Positions 2,611-10,676 of a stretch of DNA of 10,803 nt are shown piece by piece (the first letter of the stretch is position 1; each line of letters starts with the position of its first letter). Below the pieces are notes generated by a model. That model searched no databases and had not been told where the DNA came from. It saw nothing but the letters and a program-made list of their open reading frames with translations. Made by a program: the position numbers and the translations under genes. Location: positions 1-10,803 of the forward strand of contig JASLMY010000174.1 of assembly GCA_030746295.1 (NCBI GenBank), in the 5' to 3' direction. Origin of the DNA: Alphaproteobacteria bacterium. Its GTDB lineage: Bacteria > Pseudomonadota > Alphaproteobacteria > GCA-2731375.

Positions 2611-3822
2611 ATGAACTACGAAAAATTCTTCGCGGAGAGCCTGGACGGGCTCAGGTCGGAAGGCCGCTATCGCGTCTTCGCCGACTTGGAGCGGCGCGCC
2701 GGCGAGTTTCCCTGGGCCGATCATCATCTGGACGAGGGCACCGAAGAGGTCGTCGTCTGGTGCTCGAACGACTATCTCGGCATGGGCCAGAGCCCGCTGG
2801 TGCTGGCGGCGATGCACGAGGCGCTGGACCGCTGCGGCGCCGGCGCCGGGGGAACGCGCAACATCTCCGGTACCAATCACTACCACGTCCTGTTGGAGCG
2901 CGAGCTTGCCGACCTGCACGGCAAGGAGGCGGCGCTCCTCTTCACCTCGGGCTACGTCTCGAACATGGCCTCGCTCTCGATCCTGGCCTCGCAGCTACCC
3001 GACTGCATCGTGCTTTCGGACTCGCTGAACCATGCCTCGATGATCGAGGGCATCCGGCACAGCCGGGCCGAAAAGAAGATCTTCAAGCACAACGACGTCG
3101 CCGACCTAGAGCGGCTCTTGGCCGAGCAGCCGGCGGAGCGGCCCAAGCTCGTCGCTTTCGAATCGGTCTATTCGATGGACGGCGACGTGGCTCCGATCGC
3201 AGAAATCTGCGAGGTGGCCAAGCGCTATGGCGCCTTCACCTACCTCGACGAAGTCCACGCGGTCGGTCTCTACGGGCCGGGCGGCGGCGGCATTGCCGAC
3301 CGCGACGGCGTCATGGCCGAGGTCGACATTATCGAAGGCACACTCGCCAAGGCCTTCGGCGTCGCCGGCGGCTACATCACCGGCACTTCCGACCTTTGCG
3401 ACTTCGTGCGCAGCCATTCCTCGGGCTTTATCTTCACGACAGCGCTGCCACCGGCGATCGCCGCCGGCGCGCTCGCCAGCGTCCGACACTTGCGGGGAAG
3501 CGATGCCGAGCGGCAGCGCCACCAAGAGCGCGCAGCGCGGCTGAAGTCGCTCATCAAGGCGGCGGAGTTGCCGTTGATGCCGTCCGAGAGCCACATCGTG
3601 CCCGTCCTGGTCGGCGACCCGGTGCGTTGCCGCGAGGTCACCGATACGCTGATGGCGCGCCACAAGATCTACGTCCAGCCGATCAACTATCCGACCGTGC
3701 CGCGTGGCACCGAGCGGCTGAGGCTGACGCCGTCGCCGTTCCACGACGATGCCGAGATGGACCGGCTGGTGGCGGCGCTGATCGAGATCTGGTCGGCGCT
3801 GGAGCTGCCGCTCGCCGCTTGA
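2611..3822 (+). CDS. hemA: 5-aminolevulinate synthase (ALAS)
   Basis: A pyridoxal-phosphate enzyme of the alpha-oxoamine synthase family that condenses glycine and succinyl-CoA to 5-aminolevulinate, the first committed step of tetrapyrrole synthesis in Alphaproteobacteria; cytoplasmic. At 403 residues it has the usual length of bacterial ALAS. Diagnostic features are the N-terminal MNYEKFF, the substrate-loop signature [17 protein letters not shown] (76-92), H141 in [10 protein letters not shown], the cofactor-contacting D213 and H216 in [11 protein letters not shown], and the Schiff-base lysine K247 in GTLAKAFG. The NISGTNHYH and [14 protein letters not shown] stretches separate it from the related KBL and BioF enzymes. 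The start ATG follows AGGGG at 2600-2604. The FNR-type operator upstream indicates oxygen-responsive control. It is the first gene of the haem operon; a second hemA copy may exist elsewhere in the genome for constitutive supply, which cannot be seen here. Confidence 0.97.
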
Positions 3823-3902: not shown

Positions 3903-5597
3903 ATGAGTATTACCGTGACGTCCGACGCAACGCCGGACGAGACGAAGGCGCCGTTGTCCGCGCGCCGGATCATGGTGGCGCTGGACGCCTCCGAGCATGC
4001 CAACCGGGCCCTGGCCGAGGCCGTGCGCCTGGCCAAGTCGACCAGCGGCGAGATCATCGGCATTCACGCCTACGCGGCGCTGCTGCACGACCGCCGCTTC
4101 CGACAGATGGAAGGCGGCATGCCCGAGCGCTATCACCAGGAAGAGGAAATGGAGTACCAGCGTGAGGTCCACGACGACCTCATCACCCGCGGTCTCAATA
4201 TCATTTCCGACAGCTATCACGACGTCGGCGAGGCGGCCTGCCAGGCGGCCGAGCTGCCATACGGGCGGCTCAGCCCCGAGGGCAAGAACTACAGCCAGAT
4301 CGTCGAGGCCCTGAACGAGGGCGAATATGACCTGATCGCTCTCGGGGCACTCGGCCTCGGCGGCATGCCCGGTAGCATCATCGGCACCGTCGCCGAGCGC
4401 GTCGTCCGGCGTAGCCCGATCGACACCCTGGTGATCCGCGATCCGGAGCGTTCGATCACCTACGGCCCGGTCGTGGTCGGCATGGACGGCTCGAGCCGCT
4501 CCTTCGCCGCCCTCTTCATCGCCTTCGATTTGCATCGCCGATTTGGCGTCGAGGTCCATGCCGTCGCCGCCTACGACCCCTACTACCACTACGTCGCCTT
4601 CACCGCGATCTCCAAGGTGCTCAGCGACGAGGCCGGCAAGGTCTTCCGCTTCAAGGAGCAGGAGCAGCTGCACGAGGAGCTGATCGACGACGGCCTCGCC
4701 AAGATCTACCAGAGCCATCTCGACATCTCCGAGCGCCTGGCCGAGGAGGAAGGCGTGCCGCTTCGCACCGAGCTCTTGGACGGCAAGGCCTATCACGCGA
4801 TCCAGAAGTATCTGGAGAAGGTCGACGCCGGCCTGTTGCTGGTCGGCAAGACCGGCATCCACGGCGACGACGCCCTCGATATCGGTGGCAACGCGGAGAA
4901 CCTGCTGCGCTTCGCCCCCTGCCACGTCTGGCTGACGCAGCGGACCTTTACGCCCGCTCTCGACCTCATCGCCGAGGAGACCATCACCTGGAGCGAGGAG
5001 GCCGAGGCCTTGATCTCGAGGGCGCCGGCCTTCGCGCAAGGCATGGCACGCACGGCGGTGCTCAGGATGGCGCAGGAGCGCGGCCACACCTACATCACCT
5101 CTGGCCTGGTGCGCGAGGTCGCGGCCAAGATGATGCCGGGCGGCGACAAGCTGGGTGAGGACACGGCCGGTGCCGAAGGGACCGCCGAAGGTGTCAAAGT
5201 TCGGCGCGCGCTTCGCTGGGACGAGGCCGCCGTCGCACTCATCGACGCCATCGACGATGCCGCAGCGGCGCGCAATGTCCGGCTTCGGGCCGAAAAGGCG
5301 GCGAGACGGCAGGGCGACGGACGGGTCACGGCGGACCATGTCCGAAAGTTCCTCGAGAATGTGGCCCCTGGCGAGGAAGCGCTCGACTGGTCGGCGGCGG
5401 CGCTGGCCCGGCTGGCGCGGGTGCCGGAGATGATGCGCGACGCTACCCGCCAGCGCATCGAGGCCGTGGCCCGCCAACAGGGCGCTTCGGAGATCGATCT
5501 GGAGGTGGTCGAGGCGGGCCTAGTGGAGGCCCGCAAGGCGATGGCCGAGGCCATGTCCAAGGGCGGCCACAAGCTGGCGGGCGAGGGCGAGGACTAG
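3903..5597 (+). CDS. Tandem universal stress protein with three C-terminal PCP_red-like repeats
   Basis: A 564-residue soluble protein with no signal peptide. Residues about 21-180 and 188-346 are two UspA domains. The first has the full nucleotide-binding motif G-x2-G-x9-G-T (G148, G151, G161, T162). The second keeps the glycines (G315, G318, G328) but has Gly instead of Ser/Thr at 329, so it may bind ATP poorly. Behind them lie three copies of a Trp-led helical motif resembling the PCP_red domain, the C-terminal domain of the BchB/ChlB subunit of dark protochlorophyllide reductase: about 361-411 (W363), 437-486 (W439, more divergent) and 494-547 (W496). The second and third are joined by a short VAPGEEA linker; the first and second by a Gly/Glu-rich linker. 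The start follows GGGGAAG about seven bases upstream. It lies between hemA and a radical SAM gene that ends in the same domain, so a role in binding, sensing or handing on a tetrapyrrole is a reasonable inference. The biochemical activity is unknown. Confidence 0.85.
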   Translation: MSITVTSDATPDETKAPLSARRIMVALDASEHANRALAEAVRLAKSTSGEIIGIHAYAALLHDRRFRQMEGGMPERYHQEEEMEYQREVHDDLITRGLNIISDSYHDVGEAACQAAELPYGRLSPEGKNYSQIVEALNEGEYDLIALGALGLGGMPGSIIGTVAERVVRRSPIDTLVIRDPERSITYGPVVVGMDGSSRSFAALFIAFDLHRRFGVEVHAVAAYDPYYHYVAFTAISKVLSDEAGKVFRFKEQEQLHEELIDDGLAKIYQSHLDISERLAEEEGVPLRTELLDGKAYHAIQKYLEKVDAGLLLVGKTGIHGDDALDIGGNAENLLRFAPCHVWLTQRTFTPALDLIAEETITWSEEAEALISRAPAFAQGMARTAVLRMAQERGHTYITSGLVREVAAKMMPGGDKLGEDTAGAEGTAEGVKVRRALRWDEAAVALIDAIDDAAAARNVRLRAEKAARRQGDGRVTADHVRKFLENVAPGEEALDWSAAALARLARVPEMMRDATRQRIEAVARQQGASEIDLEVVEAGLVEARKAMAEAMSKGGHKLAGEGED

Positions 5598-5602
5598 ACG
5601 CC

Positions 5603-6892
5603 GTGCAAGCCGCCGTCGAGCCACCCTTCCTGGTGGCGCTGAACCTGACGCGGCGCTGCAATCTCCGGTGCGCCCATTGCTACTTGGATGCCGGCACGCG
5701 AACCGATGGTGCGGCCGACGAGCTGACGACGGCCGAGGCCAAGTCACTTATCGATCAGATCGCCGATCTCGGCGACGAGACCATGGTCGTGCTGACCGGC
5801 GGCGAGCCGATGCTGCGCCGCGACATCGAGGCGTTGGCGCGGCACGCCGCAGATCGGGGCCTGATGGTGGTCGTGGGCACGAACGGGCTGATGCTCGACG
5901 AGGCCCGGGTCGCTAGCCTGGTCGAGGCCGGCGTCGCCGGCGTCGGCATCAGCCTGGATTCGCTCGTGCCCGAGCGTCACGACATCTTCCGCGGCGTCCC
6001 CGGCGCCTGGGAGAAGGCGATGGCGGGGATCGACGCCTGCCGCCGTGGCGGCCTCGGTTTTCAGATCCACTTCTCGGTGACCGATGACACCGCACCTGAG
6101 CTGGAGGACATGATCGCCTTCGCGCGCTCGGCCGGCGCCCTCGTCCTCAACGTCTTCTTCCTGGTCTGCACCGGCCGTGGCGAGAAGGTCACCAACATCT
6201 CGGTCGAGACCTACGACGACGTGATGCGCCGGGTGACCCGGGCGGCCTACGAGGAGAGCGAGCTCATCATCCGGGCCAAGTGCGCGCCGCATTTCAAGCG
6301 CATGGCGATCGAGCTCGACCCCGCCTGGCCGATCACGCTGGCGCACGGGTATGAGGCCGGCGGCTGTCTCGCCGGTACCCGCTATTGCCGGGTGACGCCC
6401 GAGGGTGCCGTCACAGCCTGCCCCTATATCGAGGACGAGGTCGGCTCGATCCGCGGCCAAGGCTTCGCAGAGATCTGGCACGAGGCGCCGATGTTCCAGG
6501 CCCTTCGCCAGCCTCGATTGGAAGGCCGCTGCGGAGAGTGCGAGTACCGCAAGCTCTGCGGCGGCTGCCGGGCCCGCCCGCTGGCCCGCGACGGCGCGCT
6601 CATGGGCGAGGACTTCCTCTGCGCCTACCAGCCGGCAGGCGGTGCCGTGATCGAGCCGATGGCGCCCACGGCCCGAGCCATGACGTGGAGCGCCGAGGCC
6701 GAGACGCGGCTCGCCCGGGTGCCGCCCTTCCTGCGCAAGATGGTGCGCCGCCGAGCGGAGGACTATGCCCGCGAGCAAGGTGCCGCCGAGGTCACGGCAA
6801 CGCATCTCTCGACGCTGGCCAAGCGCCGCTTCGGCAAAGGTGGCCCGCCCCGAAAGCCCGACCTCTCGGGCCTTGGGAGGCCGGGCCCATGA
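5603..6892 (+). CDS. Radical SAM/SPASM protein with C-terminal PCP_red domain, NirJ/AhbD-like
   Basis: A 429-residue cytoplasmic enzyme. The radical SAM cluster motif is CNLRCAHC (C19, C23, C26), followed by the SAM-binding GGEP at 66-69. The C-terminal part carries many cysteines expected to bind auxiliary iron-sulfur clusters: C227 (CAPHFKR), C255, C262, C273, and the SPASM-like set C310, C313, C319, C322 and C340. KCAPHF and CGGCRARPLA recall NirJ (haem d1 synthesis) and AhbC/AhbD (side-chain removal and decarboxylation in alternative haem synthesis). Residues about 360-410 form a PCP_red domain (W362, VPPFLRKMVRRRAEDYAREQG) like those in the preceding gene. The start is a GTG five bases after that gene's stop, with GAGG at 5589-5592 as ribosome binding site. 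A porphyrin-modifying reaction (decarboxylation or propionate removal) is likely from family and neighbours; the exact substrate cannot be read from sequence. Confidence 0.9.
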   Translation: MQAAVEPPFLVALNLTRRCNLRCAHCYLDAGTRTDGAADELTTAEAKSLIDQIADLGDETMVVLTGGEPMLRRDIEALARHAADRGLMVVVGTNGLMLDEARVASLVEAGVAGVGISLDSLVPERHDIFRGVPGAWEKAMAGIDACRRGGLGFQIHFSVTDDTAPELEDMIAFARSAGALVLNVFFLVCTGRGEKVTNISVETYDDVMRRVTRAAYEESELIIRAKCAPHFKRMAIELDPAWPITLAHGYEAGGCLAGTRYCRVTPEGAVTACPYIEDEVGSIRGQGFAEIWHEAPMFQALRQPRLEGRCGECEYRKLCGGCRARPLARDGALMGEDFLCAYQPAGGAVIEPMAPTARAMTWSAEAETRLARVPPFLRKMVRRRAEDYAREQGAAEVTATHLSTLAKRRFGKGGPPRKPDLSGLGRPGP

Positions 6893-8295
6893 CGGTCGAC
6901 GTCGCCGTCGTCGGCGCCGGCATCTCGGGCCTTGCCGCCGCGCATGCACTGAAGTGCCGGGGCCACAGCGTCGTCGTCCTGGAGCGACAGGCGAGCGTCG
7001 GCGGCAACGCCGTCTCGGAGCGGTTGGGCGGCTTCCTGATGGAGCACGGGCCCAGCACCGTGAACGCGCAATCGCCAGTGGCGCTGGGTCTGAGCGACGC
7101 GCTGGGCCTGGCGGGCGAGCGCTGCGATCTGGGGCCCGGCGTCAAGCGGCGCTACCTGGTTCGGGACGGAGAGCTCGCCGGCATCGAGACCCACCCCTTC
7201 GGTTTCCTGGCCTCGAACTACCTCTCGCTTGCCGCCCGGCTTCGGCTGCTCGTCGAATGGGGCGTGCCCAAGGGCAAGGGCCATCCCGAGGCCGAGGAAA
7301 CGGTGGCCGCCTTCTGCCAACGCCGCTTTGGGACCGAGTTTACAAGCCGCATCATCGACCCGCTGGTCGGCGGCCTTTACGGCGGTCGGGCCTCGGAGCT
7401 TTCGATCAAGGCCGTGTTTCCGGGTCTGATCGGGCTGGAGCAGGATCATGGCTCGATTACTGCTGGCGTCGTGCGCAGCCGTTTCGCCAACCGGCGCATG
7501 CCGGGCAGCCGCCTCTTCTCGTGGCAGCAGGGCATCGGCGCCTTGCCGCGGGCCCTTCTGGCCCGGCTCGGAGACGAGGTGCGGACCGGCGTTGCCGTCA
7601 AGCGTCTGGGCGCGGCGGCAGGGGGCTTCGGGCTCGACCTCGGGTCTGCTGGCCGGCTCAGCGCCCGGGCCGTGCTCTTGGCGACCCAGCCCCATGTCGC
7701 GGCCGAGCTGCTGGGTGGCCTCGATTCCGCGGCGTCTGAGGCGGCGGCCGGGGTCGCGGCACCACCGCTCGCCGTCGTCTTCCTCGGCTACCCCCGCAGC
7801 CAAGTGGCGCACCCCTTGGACGGCCTGGGCTTCCTCGGTCCCGAGAGCGAAGGCCGCACGCTGACCGGCGCGCAGTTCTGCTCGACCATGTTCCCGGGCC
7901 GGGCACCCGATGGCCAAGTCGCCATCGCCGCCTATTTCGGCGGTGCTCGTGCGCCGGAGCTGGCGCAGCGGCCGGCAGCGGAGCTGATCGGGCTGGCGCG
8001 GGACGAGTTCCGCGACCTCATCGGCGCCGAGGGCGAGCCGACGCTGGCTCGCGTCCGCCATTGGCCGATGGGTCTGCCGCAGTACCGGATCGGCCACCTG
8101 GACCGCGTTCGGACCCTGCGTGGCACCCCGGATCGGCGGCCGGGTCTCTTCCTCGCCGGCAACTACTTCAGCGGCCCGTCGGTTGCCGAGTGCCTGAAGG
8201 TCGCGCAAGAGACGGCGGCGCAAATCGACGTCCATCTCGACGGTCAGGAACGGTCGCAACGCATCGCCGCGTCCCGCGCCGCCGACGCTTTCTAG
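6889..8295 (+). CDS. FAD-dependent protoporphyrinogen/coproporphyrinogen oxidase (HemY/HemG family)
   Basis: A 468-residue flavoprotein expected to oxidise protoporphyrinogen IX (or coproporphyrinogen III) by six electrons to the porphyrin. An N-terminal dinucleotide-binding motif (GAGISG, 9-14, followed by E32 at the end of the second strand) binds FAD. Other family marks are MEHGPSTVNA (51-60), DPLVGGLYGGRASELS (157-172, the GVYAG-like motif), FPGLIGLEQDHGSI (177-190), WPMGLPQYRIGH (392-403) and the C-terminal FAD-contacting GNYFSGPSVAEC (424-435). The length is normal. The ATG overlaps the radical SAM stop codon (ATGA), with GGGAGG at 6875-6880 as ribosome binding site, so it is the last gene of the operon. 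HemY-type enzymes normally use molecular oxygen, which sits oddly with FNR-type control. A few bacteria use other acceptors, so microaerobic work or an electron-acceptor partner is possible. It is named hemG or hemY by different pipelines, hence no symbol is given. Confidence 0.92.
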   Translation: MTVDVAVVGAGISGLAAAHALKCRGHSVVVLERQASVGGNAVSERLGGFLMEHGPSTVNAQSPVALGLSDALGLAGERCDLGPGVKRRYLVRDGELAGIETHPFGFLASNYLSLAARLRLLVEWGVPKGKGHPEAEETVAAFCQRRFGTEFTSRIIDPLVGGLYGGRASELSIKAVFPGLIGLEQDHGSITAGVVRSRFANRRMPGSRLFSWQQGIGALPRALLARLGDEVRTGVAVKRLGAAAGGFGLDLGSAGRLSARAVLLATQPHVAAELLGGLDSAASEAAAGVAAPPLAVVFLGYPRSQVAHPLDGLGFLGPESEGRTLTGAQFCSTMFPGRAPDGQVAIAAYFGGARAPELAQRPAAELIGLARDEFRDLIGAEGEPTLARVRHWPMGLPQYRIGHLDRVRTLRGTPDRRPGLFLAGNYFSGPSVAECLKVAQETAAQIDVHLDGQERSQRIAASRAADAF

Positions 8296-8435
8296 CTCGT
8301 CCACCCGGCATGTATTGGCGTCATCAGCGCCGTTGTTGTCTGGAGTCTCTTCGCCCCGGCGTTATGGATGGTAGCGAGGCTTCTTGGCCTTCGTCCTTGC
8401 TGATCAGGCGTCCGCGAAAGCGGGGCATGGCCAAC

Positions 8436-8465
8436 ATGACGGTGGCGGCGCAGTTTCGCTATGAT
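8436..8465 (+). promoter_or_regulatory. Possible sigma-70 promoter for the corrinoid/methyltransferase genes
   Basis: ATGACG (8436-8441) and TATGAT (8460-8465) match the -35 and -10 consensus at four and five of six positions and are separated by 18 bases. They lie about 80 bases before the start of the corrinoid protein gene. A small inverted repeat, ATGA-TCG-TCAT (8461-8471), covers the -10 and could be an operator. The evidence is only sequence resemblance. Confidence 0.35.
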
Positions 8466-8481
8466 CGTCATGAATTTGAGG

Positions 8482-8525
8482 GTTGTCCGGGAAATGTCGG
8501 CTCAAATGGGGATTCCCAGACCGGG
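8482..8525. repeat. Motif copy A (GTTGTC...GGGAAAT...ATTCCCAG), upstream of the corrinoid gene
   Basis: GTTGTCCGGGAAAT (8482-8495) and ATTCCCAGACCGGG (8512-8525) form an imperfect inverted pair, GGGAA (8489-8493) with TTCCC (8513-8517). Close variants of both parts recur at the right end of the window (10771-10799). It ends 17 bases before the start codon of the corrinoid protein gene, so it may be an operator or a leader-RNA structure. The role is unknown. Confidence 0.35.
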
Positions 8526-8542
8526 TTTTTGCGGAGAGCGTT

Positions 8543-9190
8543 ATGTCGGGTGATTCAGAGTTCGATGTCGTCGAGGCGGTTTGTGAACTGCGCGAGGCCG
8601 AGGTATTGGCCTGGGTCGGCGAGCAGCTTGAGCTACAGCCGCCCTTGGAGATCGCCAATGCCTTGACCGCCGGCCTCGAGCGACTGGGCGCGCGCTTCGC
8701 CGATGGCACGGTCTTCATTCCCGAATTGGTGATGGGCGGCGAGCTCTTCACGAAGGCCATCGAGCTTCTGACCCCAGCCCTCGAGGCCAGCGGCAGCGCG
8801 CTGAAGAAGCACGGCACGGTCATCATCGGCACGGTCAAGGGAGATTTGCACGATCTTGGCCAGAACCTGGTTTCGGTGACCCTGGCGGCGGCCGGTTTCG
8901 AGGTTATCAACCTGGGCTGCGACGTGGCACCCGAGCGTTTCGTCGAAGAAGTCGCGCGCAGCCGGCCGCAGGTCATCGGGCTGTCCGCGCTCTTGACCAC
9001 CACCATGCAGAGGCAGGCCGAGATCATCGAGGCCCTGGCGGCGGCCGGCTTGCGCAACCAGGTGCGGGTGCTGATCGGCGGTGCCGTGGCCAACCAACGC
9101 TGGGCCGACGAGATCGGTGCCGACGCTTATGGCGCCGATGCCATCGATGCCCTCGACAAGGTCAAGACCCTGGTCGGCGTCAACGCGTGA
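8543..9190 (+). CDS. Corrinoid-binding protein of a methyltransferase system (MttC/MtgC-like)
   Basis: A 215-residue cobalamin-binding protein that should carry a methyl group between a substrate-specific methyltransferase and a tetrahydrofolate-dependent one in the cytoplasm. The N-terminal third (about 1-88) is the helical cap domain typical of the B12-binding methyltransferase family (PPLEIANALTAGLERLGARFADG..FIPELVMGGELF). The Rossmann-like B12 domain contains the base-off/His-on motif D-x-H-x-x-G (D101, H103, G106 in GTVKGDLHDLGQ), with S148-x-L150 and GG at 179-180 as the other cobalamin contacts. H103 would be the lower cobalt ligand. The ATG at 8543 is chosen because GGAGAG (8533-8538) lies just upstream and because the conserved fold begins soon after; an upstream TTG at 8483 would add 20 unrelated residues. 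It is 22 bases from the methyltransferase gene, its expected partner. Confidence 0.93.
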   Translation: MSGDSEFDVVEAVCELREAEVLAWVGEQLELQPPLEIANALTAGLERLGARFADGTVFIPELVMGGELFTKAIELLTPALEASGSALKKHGTVIIGTVKGDLHDLGQNLVSVTLAAAGFEVINLGCDVAPERFVEEVARSRPQVIGLSALLTTTMQRQAEIIEALAAAGLRNQVRVLIGGAVANQRWADEIGADAYGADAIDALDKVKTLVGVNA

Positions 9191-9212
9191 ATTTGGCTTT
9201 CGGGAGTGCGAG

Positions 9213-10676
9213 ATGCAACCGCGGCTGACCTTTCTGAACGACGAGGAACTGGACCGCATCATCGACGGCGCCTTCGAGGTCCTGGCCCGTGTCGGCGTCC
9301 ATATCGGCAGCGAGCGGGTGATGGATATCGTCGCCTCCCAGACCGGTGCCCGACGCGACGGCGAGCGCGTCACGCTGAGCCGCGATCTGGTCGAGCGCTG
9401 CCTCGAGACCTGCCCCGCCGAGGTCAGGCTCTACCGCCAGGACAGGGACGAGCCCATCGTGCTGGCTGGCGATGCGGTCAATTTCGTAGCCGGCTCGACG
9501 GTGCCCTACATCTACGACCCCGACAGCATCGGCCTGCGCGAGGCCACCTCGCGCGATCTCGTCAACCACACCAAGGTCATCGACCGCTGCGACCACATCG
9601 ACATGCAAAGCGGCTCCTTCGTGCCCAGCGACGTGCCCAAGCCCATCGTCAGCGCCTACCGCTACTATCTGGCGCTGCTCTATTCGCCGAAGCCCATGTT
9701 CAGCGGCGCCTTCGGCACTGACGACATCGCCGTCATCTGGGGCGTCATGGCGGCGCTGGCGGGGGGCGAGAAGGAGCTGGCGGAACGGCCCATCGCACTT
9801 CTGTGCGTCAATCCCTCGTCGCCGCTGGGGCTGACCGAAGTGGTGGCCGAAAACGCCGCATTCCTGGCCGAGAAGAACTTCCCCTGCCTGATGATCCCGA
9901 TCCCGCTGGCTGGCGGCTCCTCGCCAGTGACGCTGGCCGGTACCCTGGTCCAGCACACGGCCGAGAACCTGGCCACGCTGGTGGTCAGCCAGACGGTGCG
10001 GCCCGGCGCACCGGTGATCTTCGGTGGCGGCCCCTCGATCATGGACATGCGCAAGGGCACTGCCTGCCAGGCCGCCAGCGAAGCCATCATGATGGGGGCG
10101 GCCATCGGCCAGATCGCCAAGCGTCTGAAACTGCCGTCGTCGACCAACACCGGTCGCGCCGACAGCAAGTGCGTCGACTATCAGGCCGGTGAGGAATCGG
10201 GAGCGGCGCTGACCGCCATGGCGCTGGCGCGCATCAATCTGATCCGAGGCTCGGGGACGCTCGAATACGCCAACGTCGTGAGCACGGAGAAGCTGCTCAT
10301 CGATAACGAGATCTGCGGCATGGCCAAACGCCTGATCCGGCCGATCGACACCGGTGACGAGGCCCTGGCGCTGGACGTCATCCTCGAGCGCGGCACCACT
10401 ACGACCGGGTTCCTGTCGTCGCCTCATACCCTGAAGTGGTTCAGAAGCGAGTTCTTCCAGCCCTCCGACATCATCGATCGCGGCCAGCGCCGGGAGTTCG
10501 AGGCCCAAGGCAGCAAGGACGCCTTCGGCCGAGCCCAGGTCGGCGTGCAGCAGATCCTGGCCGAATACACGCCGCGCCAGATCGACGCCGAGCGAAAGCG
10601 CGAAGCCGACCGCATCATCGCCGCCTATGCCAAGCAGCACGGCATGGACCAATTGCCGGTGACGGAACTCGAATAG
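9213..10676 (+). CDS. Trimethylamine methyltransferase family protein (MttB superfamily, non-pyrrolysine)
   Basis: A 487-residue cytoplasmic TIM-barrel enzyme, about the usual length for the family, expected to transfer a methyl group from an N-methyl compound to the corrinoid protein encoded just before it. Recognisable parts include the N-terminal FEVLARVGVHIGSERVMDIV, FVAGSTVPYIYDPDSIGLREAT (91-112), PKPMFSGAFG (159-168), LCVNPSSPLGL (197-207) and GGGPSIMDMRKGTACQAASE (271-290). True trimethylamine methyltransferases carry pyrrolysine at an in-frame amber codon near residue 334. Here the reading frame has no amber codon before the final stop, so this belongs to the larger non-pyrrolysine group that includes MtgB (glycine betaine) and relatives acting on proline betaine, carnitine and similar compounds. 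The substrate is not known. The ATG at 9213 follows CGGGAG at 9201-9206. No methylcorrinoid:tetrahydrofolate methyltransferase or reductive activator lies in the window; they could follow downstream. Confidence 0.93.
   Translation: MQPRLTFLNDEELDRIIDGAFEVLARVGVHIGSERVMDIVASQTGARRDGERVTLSRDLVERCLETCPAEVRLYRQDRDEPIVLAGDAVNFVAGSTVPYIYDPDSIGLREATSRDLVNHTKVIDRCDHIDMQSGSFVPSDVPKPIVSAYRYYLALLYSPKPMFSGAFGTDDIAVIWGVMAALAGGEKELAERPIALLCVNPSSPLGLTEVVAENAAFLAEKNFPCLMIPIPLAGGSSPVTLAGTLVQHTAENLATLVVSQTVRPGAPVIFGGGPSIMDMRKGTACQAASEAIMMGAAIGQIAKRLKLPSSTNTGRADSKCVDYQAGEESGAALTAMALARINLIRGSGTLEYANVVSTEKLLIDNEICGMAKRLIRPIDTGDEALALDVILERGTTTTGFLSSPHTLKWFRSEFFQPSDIIDRGQRREFEAQGSKDAFGRAQVGVQQILAEYTPRQIDAERKREADRIIAAYAKQHGMDQLPVTELE

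Follow-up and report, generated by a model that had tools for sequence, protein, structure and literature searches.

A tandem universal stress protein with PCP_red repeats is tied to tetrapyrrole-type enzymes and a cytochrome-linked bd-like oxidase complex

In a 10,803-nucleotide stretch of alphaproteobacterial DNA (the window; positions 1 to 10,803 of contig JASLMY010000174.1, GenBank assembly GCA_030746295.1), the open reading frame at 3903–5597 of the plus strand translates without interruption into 564 amino acids. The protein, here called Usp-PCP_red, joins two universal stress protein (Usp) domains to three units of PCP_red, a domain otherwise known from the C-terminus of BchB/ChlB, the dark-operative protochlorophyllide reductase. 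Our main new observation is a near-constant tie between Usp-PCP_red and a cytochrome-linked oxidase complex with a CydA-like (hereafter bd-like) subunit, a strong association that the original prediction, made from the letters of the window alone, had missed. Next to Usp-PCP_red lie genes for a radical S-adenosylmethionine (SAM) enzyme that likewise carries a PCP_red unit and for a protoporphyrinogen oxidase (PPO), and we hold with moderate confidence that these three proteins constitute a dedicated tetrapyrrole-handling and assembly module of the bd-like complex, in which Usp-PCP_red would serve as scaffold or carrier. Because the operon contains two haem-pathway enzymes together with a cytochrome-linked bd relative, Usp-PCP_red probably makes or delivers the haem of this oxidase.

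The proposed architecture—two Usp domains followed by three PCP_red-like repeats—was recovered by Pfam, which assigned Usp to two stretches (114.6 bits) and PCP_red (PF08369) to three (88.4 bits, cut-off 32.5; E 3.1e-25). Profiles from a 61-sequence alignment set the borders of the units at residues 361–408 (R1; 4983–5126), 437–485 (R2; 5211–5357), and 494–542 (R3; 5382–5528), with support from the predicted structure for each. The same domain closes the radical SAM protein, as had been noticed earlier: Pfam finds it at residues 362–402 (60.6 bits, same cut-off), and Pfam and profiles together place it at residues 360–402 (6680–6808). By profile comparison, R1, R2, and R3 are homologous to one another and to the radical SAM unit, with profile-profile probabilities of 98% for R1/R3, 97% for R2/R3, and 84% for R1/R2, a likeness that greatly exceeds chance. 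When the four units were scored pairwise, five of the six pairs exceeded all 2000 shuffles; the direct score of R2/R3 was modest and was equalled by 20 of 2000 shuffles. The suggested pattern W-(S/D)-x-x-A-x-x-L holds in R1 and R2 and breaks down in R3 and the radical SAM unit, where the leucine sits one residue later. Of the 81 sequences of our conservation set (80 related loci plus the window), 81, 80, and 81 retain the tryptophans proposed to lead the repeats (W363, W439, and W496, respectively). Within this set, 52 proteins carry three PCP_red units, 26 carry five, one carries four, and two carry two; the last two may be cut sequences.

Structure prediction was in line with these assignments. 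The N-terminal part is predicted to adopt a tandem Usp fold; because searching for folds with the complete model brought up the Usp part only, the tail was modelled alone. The best matches of the resulting repeat models were the two solved PCP_red domains, weak as these matches were, so that the predicted fold of the repeats is that of PCP_red.

Genes of tetrapyrrole type lie next to Usp-PCP_red. A genome-contig scan gave 279 relatives, and the best 80 of the 279 were kept as loci, in which neighbor genes were found by tblastn with the proteins of the window. The NirJ2/AhbD-like radical SAM/SPASM enzyme (5603–6892, as throughout on the plus strand; Pfam Radical_SAM 96.5 bits, SPASM 32.2 bits), was matched in 76 loci, and the PPO, of the flavin adenine dinucleotide (FAD) type (6889–8295; TIGR00562 241.9 bits on 6892–8295, above the curated cut-off of 97.85), in 68 of 80, a neighbor that the earlier reading had not mentioned. 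Once loci without room were dropped (5 of the 80 when testing for radical SAM and 12 when testing for PPO), the radical SAM gene was found to adjoin Usp-PCP_red in 74 of 75 loci and the PPO gene to lie within 4 kb of it in 65 of 68. The median distance between the Usp-PCP_red stop and the beginning of the radical SAM match was 20 bases. The fusions are thus not found mostly away from tetrapyrrole genes, and the suspected link to such genes stands. The description of the gene as lying inside a haem operon is correct for the window, where a 5-aminolevulinate synthase gene (ALAS, 2611–3822; TIGR01821 664.5 bits, cut-off 338.55) precedes it and the radical SAM and PPO genes follow; with no ALAS match in any of the 80 other loci, however, the synthase is ruled out as a general neighbor or partner. 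ALAS joined the operon in the window alone, as if boosting precursor supply.

All 71 relatives of the radical SAM enzyme keep CxxxCxxC, and 70 of them keep the PCP_red tail; PF08369 is also present in all 120 of its database relatives among the matches listed, and a few relatives have been named AdoMet-dependent heme synthase by JGI. The enzyme shares its superfamily with the haem synthase AhbD and with NirJ/NirJ2 (TIGR04055, 310.7 bits; TIGR04545, 297.9 bits), but unlike these it scores well below the 500-bit equivalog cut-offs (NirJ2/AhbD) and bears a PCP_red tail. Organisms with the module usually also have HemJ (18 of 20 genomes with Usp-PCP_red), so the PPO of the module is usually an additional one. 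The PCP_red matches listed in 20 such genomes belong, by contig and frame, to the module only, and among 14 control genomes Synechococcus alone has PCP_red.

In many of the same operons, the genes upstream run in the order bd-like (CydA-like, ~600 amino acids), cytochrome c, cTM, and EBdhC. The window holds the last two: cTM, a membrane-anchored c-type cytochrome and member of the bd-like complex operon (5–772; Pfam Cytochrome_CBB3 27.9 bits), whose 5′ part was probably cut off by the window edge, and EBdhC, with an EB_dh domain and two c-type haem domains (765–2309; Pfam EB_dh 92.9 bits, Cytochrom_C in two stretches), whose start overlaps the end of cTM. Their tblastn matches numbered 39 and 47 of the 80 loci, respectively. 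The bd-like gene itself falls within the available DNA of 37 of the 80, and synteny with related loci suggests that a copy belonging to the window would lie upstream of it. The bd-like subunit has a Cyt_bd_oxida_I domain (Pfam 56.5 bits, cut-off 26.2), as CydA does. We take residues H19, E99, E107, and E445 of Escherichia coli CydA to have haem roles; all 30 bd-like sequences retain the residues aligned to H19 and E107, whereas all 30 have tyrosine at the E99 position and all 30 leucine at the E445 position, the latter read from a weak C-terminal alignment (hhalign 90%). The N-terminal part of this alignment is sound and its C-terminal half weak. Judged by its sequence, the subunit is not a canonical CydA. 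The c-type-linked OR-N CydAA' enzymes, which PMC10839748 describes as putative, c-oxidising, and uncharacterised, are candidate kin. Nitrospira marina is reported to have seven putative bd-like oxidases, and several of its UspA proteins are reported to increase at low O2 (PMC8115632). Many loci that carry the bd-like complex only have it twice, a second CydA-like gene (~720 amino acids) with its own cytochromes preceding the first set (for example, L010 2–4211 and 4671–9578; G006:C13:100437–102467).

We searched the same samples of 845 genomes from three lineages with both Usp-PCP_red (threshold 1e-60 in Alphaproteobacteria and Gammaproteobacteria, 1e-50 in Myxococcota) and the bd-like subunit (1e-40 and 1e-30). 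Usp-PCP_red, bd-like, and both were found, respectively, in 9, 10, and 9 of 289 alphaproteobacterial genomes, in 9, 11, and 9 of 274 gammaproteobacterial genomes, and in 6, 7, and 5 of 282 Myxococcota genomes, giving totals of 24, 28, and 23 (Fisher p ~4e-39; 1e-34 without the three centres). The independence of genomes that these p-values assume does not hold; three separate lineages nevertheless agree. The two genes share a contig in seven of nine alphaproteobacterial and nine of nine gammaproteobacterial pairs (the latter within ~16 kb). Matched frames containing a stop were counted (Usp-PCP_red in G456 and G645; bd-like in G093 and G329), and since the second, longer CydA-like gene also answers the bd-like query, at least one genome (G617) was counted on that gene alone. 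All six exceptions (L085, L112, L113, L124, L118, and L119) lie at contig ends. L085 (G093) stops 98 bases past an SCO match behind EBdhC, and the same order in L109 continues to Usp-PCP_red; the contigs of L113 (G429) and L124 (G865) end inside bd-like; the Usp match of L118 (G754) is cut by the contig end; and the contig edge of L119 (G719, Usp only) starts with cTM and EBdhC. Among the 60 Usp-PCP_red-positive genomes reached through the loci, 56 have a bd-like match.

The family is widely spread. Of 7999 candidates scored from a protein database of 5.8 billion entries, 5220 matched at E 1e-3 or better, some of them perhaps through the Usp domain alone; all 120 matches listed (query included) contain Usp as well as PCP_red, and wherever a name is given it is universal stress protein. 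The 80 loci come mostly from metagenome-assembled genomes (MAGs) of Alphaproteobacteria, with some Gammaproteobacteria and one Myxococcota; MAGs bearing the names Roseovarius and Aliiroseovarius are among them (L061 and L065), and the bd-like link recurs in many marine MAGs, marine going only by names such as ETNP and Arabian. Four Myxococcota loci (L127, L126, L121, and L120) show further PCP_red-like profile hits beyond the matched Usp and radical SAM stretches. Neither a phage collection nor a plasmid collection gave a match that would indicate carriage on such elements.

Within Usp-PCP_red, the best conserved of the parts measured lie in the Usp body. Domain 1 (residues 20–180; 3960–4442) carries the motif G148-x2-G151-x9-G161-T162, and the full form G-x2-G-x9-G-(S/T) is present in 80 of 81 sequences; in domain 2 (residues 187–346; 4461–4940; G315, G318, and G328) glycine replaces the Ser/Thr, at residue 329, in 78 of 81. 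The glycines of both motifs are invariant. With this motif and its predicted Usp fold, the protein falls into the ATP-binding class of Usp. Conservation peaks in two stretches that the earlier reading had not picked out, which exceed the Usp domains as a whole: residues 55–107 of domain 1 (4065–4223; mean 0.84), where H55, H62, and H90 are kept in all readable residues, and residues 222–273 of domain 2 (4566–4721; mean 0.91, the highest among the parts measured), where H229 and H257 are invariant. The two domains align without gaps (98.7%), pairing H62 with H229, F66 with F233, Q86 with Q253, and H90 with H257. From this symmetry we would guess that H62, H90, H229, and H257 form a metal or haem site; the paired His/Gln stretches as such could possibly serve as a metal, haem, or phosphate site. 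Such stretches, like the PCP_red tail, are additions relative to the tandem Usp proteins Rv2623 (3cis) and TTHA0350 (3ab8, with ATP). BchB/ChlB (PDB 2kru, 2ynm, 2xdq) shares only its C-terminal PCP_red domain with our protein, which lacks the nitrogenase-like body, scores 44–45.7 bits with the NCBIfam BchB models (cut-offs 490 and 509), and carries three to five units on its Usp body.

These features suggest how a tetrapyrrole-handling module might work. By analogy with AhbD and NirJ, which, according to PMC7242693, convert two propionates of Fe-coproporphyrin to vinyls and remove two propionates for haem d1, respectively, the radical SAM enzyme may act on a porphyrin or haem by trimming or oxidising its propionate side chains, while the FAD-type PPO would oxidise the macrocycle. 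PCP_red units on both proteins could hold the tetrapyrrole or bind the partners together, so that the tetrapyrrole would be passed on, not released. The hand-over to the oxidase subunits might be gated by the tandem Usp body, which is of the ATP type and has the paired invariant histidines. In the window, ALAS would add precursor supply. The haem idea of the original prediction is plausible, and better supported than could be known at the time. A bolder version, in which the module builds a special haem—side-chain-modified or with a reduced ring, of an undescribed kind—and inserts it into the CydA-like subunit with PCP_red as the carrier, we regard as possible but doubtful. Such a pathway would, to our knowledge, be the first devoted to making the cofactor of a bd-family oxygen reductase.

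Several observations weigh against an assembly module for the bd-like oxidase. Four of the 60 genomes mentioned above (G034, G041, G046, and G047) have Usp-PCP_red without a bd-like match; Myxococcota pairs share a contig in only one of five cases, contigs there being short; and L112 (G530) holds 960 bases past EBdhC without Usp-PCP_red, which leans against the rule because other loci start the gene up to ~860 bases past EBdhC. One locus (L108) has Usp-PCP_red, with one in-frame stop, as well as PPO, yet its 20 kb gave no match for radical SAM, and three (L001, L054, and L068) have no PPO match. Co-inheritance as one operon indicates shared use, not which step is served, and the molybdoenzymes and cytochromes of the same operons need cofactors too. 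Furthermore, the PCP_red units are less conserved (0.56–0.65) than the Usp stretches, so the Usp part may be where the key chemistry takes place. The predicted PCP_red fold is also about as similar to AAA+ lid domains as to 2kru, so protein–protein contacts would fit equally well, and PCP_red may bind proteins only.

Taken further, this last point would make PCP_red a docking element and Usp-PCP_red an ATP-dependent scaffold that joins the radical SAM enzyme, PPO, and oxidase subunits without touching a tetrapyrrole. We consider this unlikely: the occurrence of the domain in BchB and in a tetrapyrrole-type radical SAM enzyme is compatible with both roles, and the Trp, Arg, and Pro positions of the units are strongly kept.

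It is quite improbable, in our view, that the module serves the EB_dh protein, c-type cytochromes, or a molybdoenzyme, with bd-like a mere fellow member of the operon. In 24 genomes with Usp-PCP_red, EB_dh is as constant as bd-like (21 versus 20 matches), and L087 combines NarG-like, NarH, NarJ, and EB_dh gamma genes with those for Usp, radical SAM, and PPO in a genome (G046) without a bd-like match. The molybdoenzymes, however, vary between iodate-reductase-like and NarG-like or are absent from the available stretch, and bd-like is found in 56 of the 60 genomes tested; the misses may reflect incomplete draft genomes. In some loci, an IdrP1-P2-B-A-like set with HEAT, c8, and FGE genes lies between EBdhC and Usp-PCP_red as one gene row (whole in L081; its upstream part in L082, L084, and L088); in yet others, this place is taken by genes of NarG-, NarH-, and NarJ-like type together with one for an EB_dh gamma subunit. 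IdrA-like genes occur near the module in 23 of 80 loci, and IdrB-like and two MauG-like peroxidase genes in 20 each; the large and small Idr-like subunits pass arsenite oxidase family cut-offs and, together with the two peroxidases, match the idr pattern described in PMC8692401. These molybdoenzymes are optional extras, and a general partnership with Idr-like genes is ruled out by their 23 of 80 loci as against bd-like in 56 of 60 genomes. The cluster given there, idrABP1P2, has no counterpart in the window, which is without any idr gene, and universal stress, radical SAM, cytochrome bd, and protoporphyrinogen all go unmentioned in the main text of that paper. In L064, three genes at 6061–9987 separate IdrA-like from Usp-PCP_red: one for a protein with HEAT repeats, one for c8, whose C-terminal part is CarboxypepD_reg-like, and one for a protein with an FGE-sulfatase domain.

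We give least credence to a regulator in which the tandem Usp would sense ATP or energy and PCP_red a tetrapyrrole to tune radical SAM and PPO or oxidase expression: Usp domains of the ATP-binding kind and two-component genes near some loci would suit it, but the Pfam scan found no DNA-binding or output domain in Usp-PCP_red, the gene is tied closely to its enzymes, and sigma-54 or PAS two-component systems of their own are present in some loci.

The remaining genes of the window complete the picture of a tightly packed, one-strand arrangement with ATGA overlaps at 2306–2309 and at 6889–6892, where the PPO start meets the radical SAM stop. A small protein of no family, probably a membrane protein (2306–2542), has no tblastn counterpart in the 80 other loci. 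Behind the module follow a corrinoid protein (8483–9190; TIGR02370 186.5 bits, below the cut-off of 215.3) and an MttB-like methyltransferase (9081–10676; TIGR02369 347.3 bits, below the cut-off of 525), neither with relatives in the 80 other loci by tblastn with the window's proteins; the methyltransferase looks to be of the non-pyrrolysine kind, because its frame has no in-frame stop.

The open-licence literature we searched contained no paper on the Usp-PCP_red fusion or its bd-like tie, and none defining the role of the PCP_red domain. Usp-PCP_red represents a widespread yet unstudied bacterial protein, in which PCP_red is in use outside (bacterio)chlorophyll synthesis. Through its tie to the bd-like oxidase, the family gains a testable job, and an uncharacterised bd-like oxidase gains three candidate biogenesis factors. 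Should the module indeed make a modified haem, this would bear on how bd-family oxidases obtain unusual haems.
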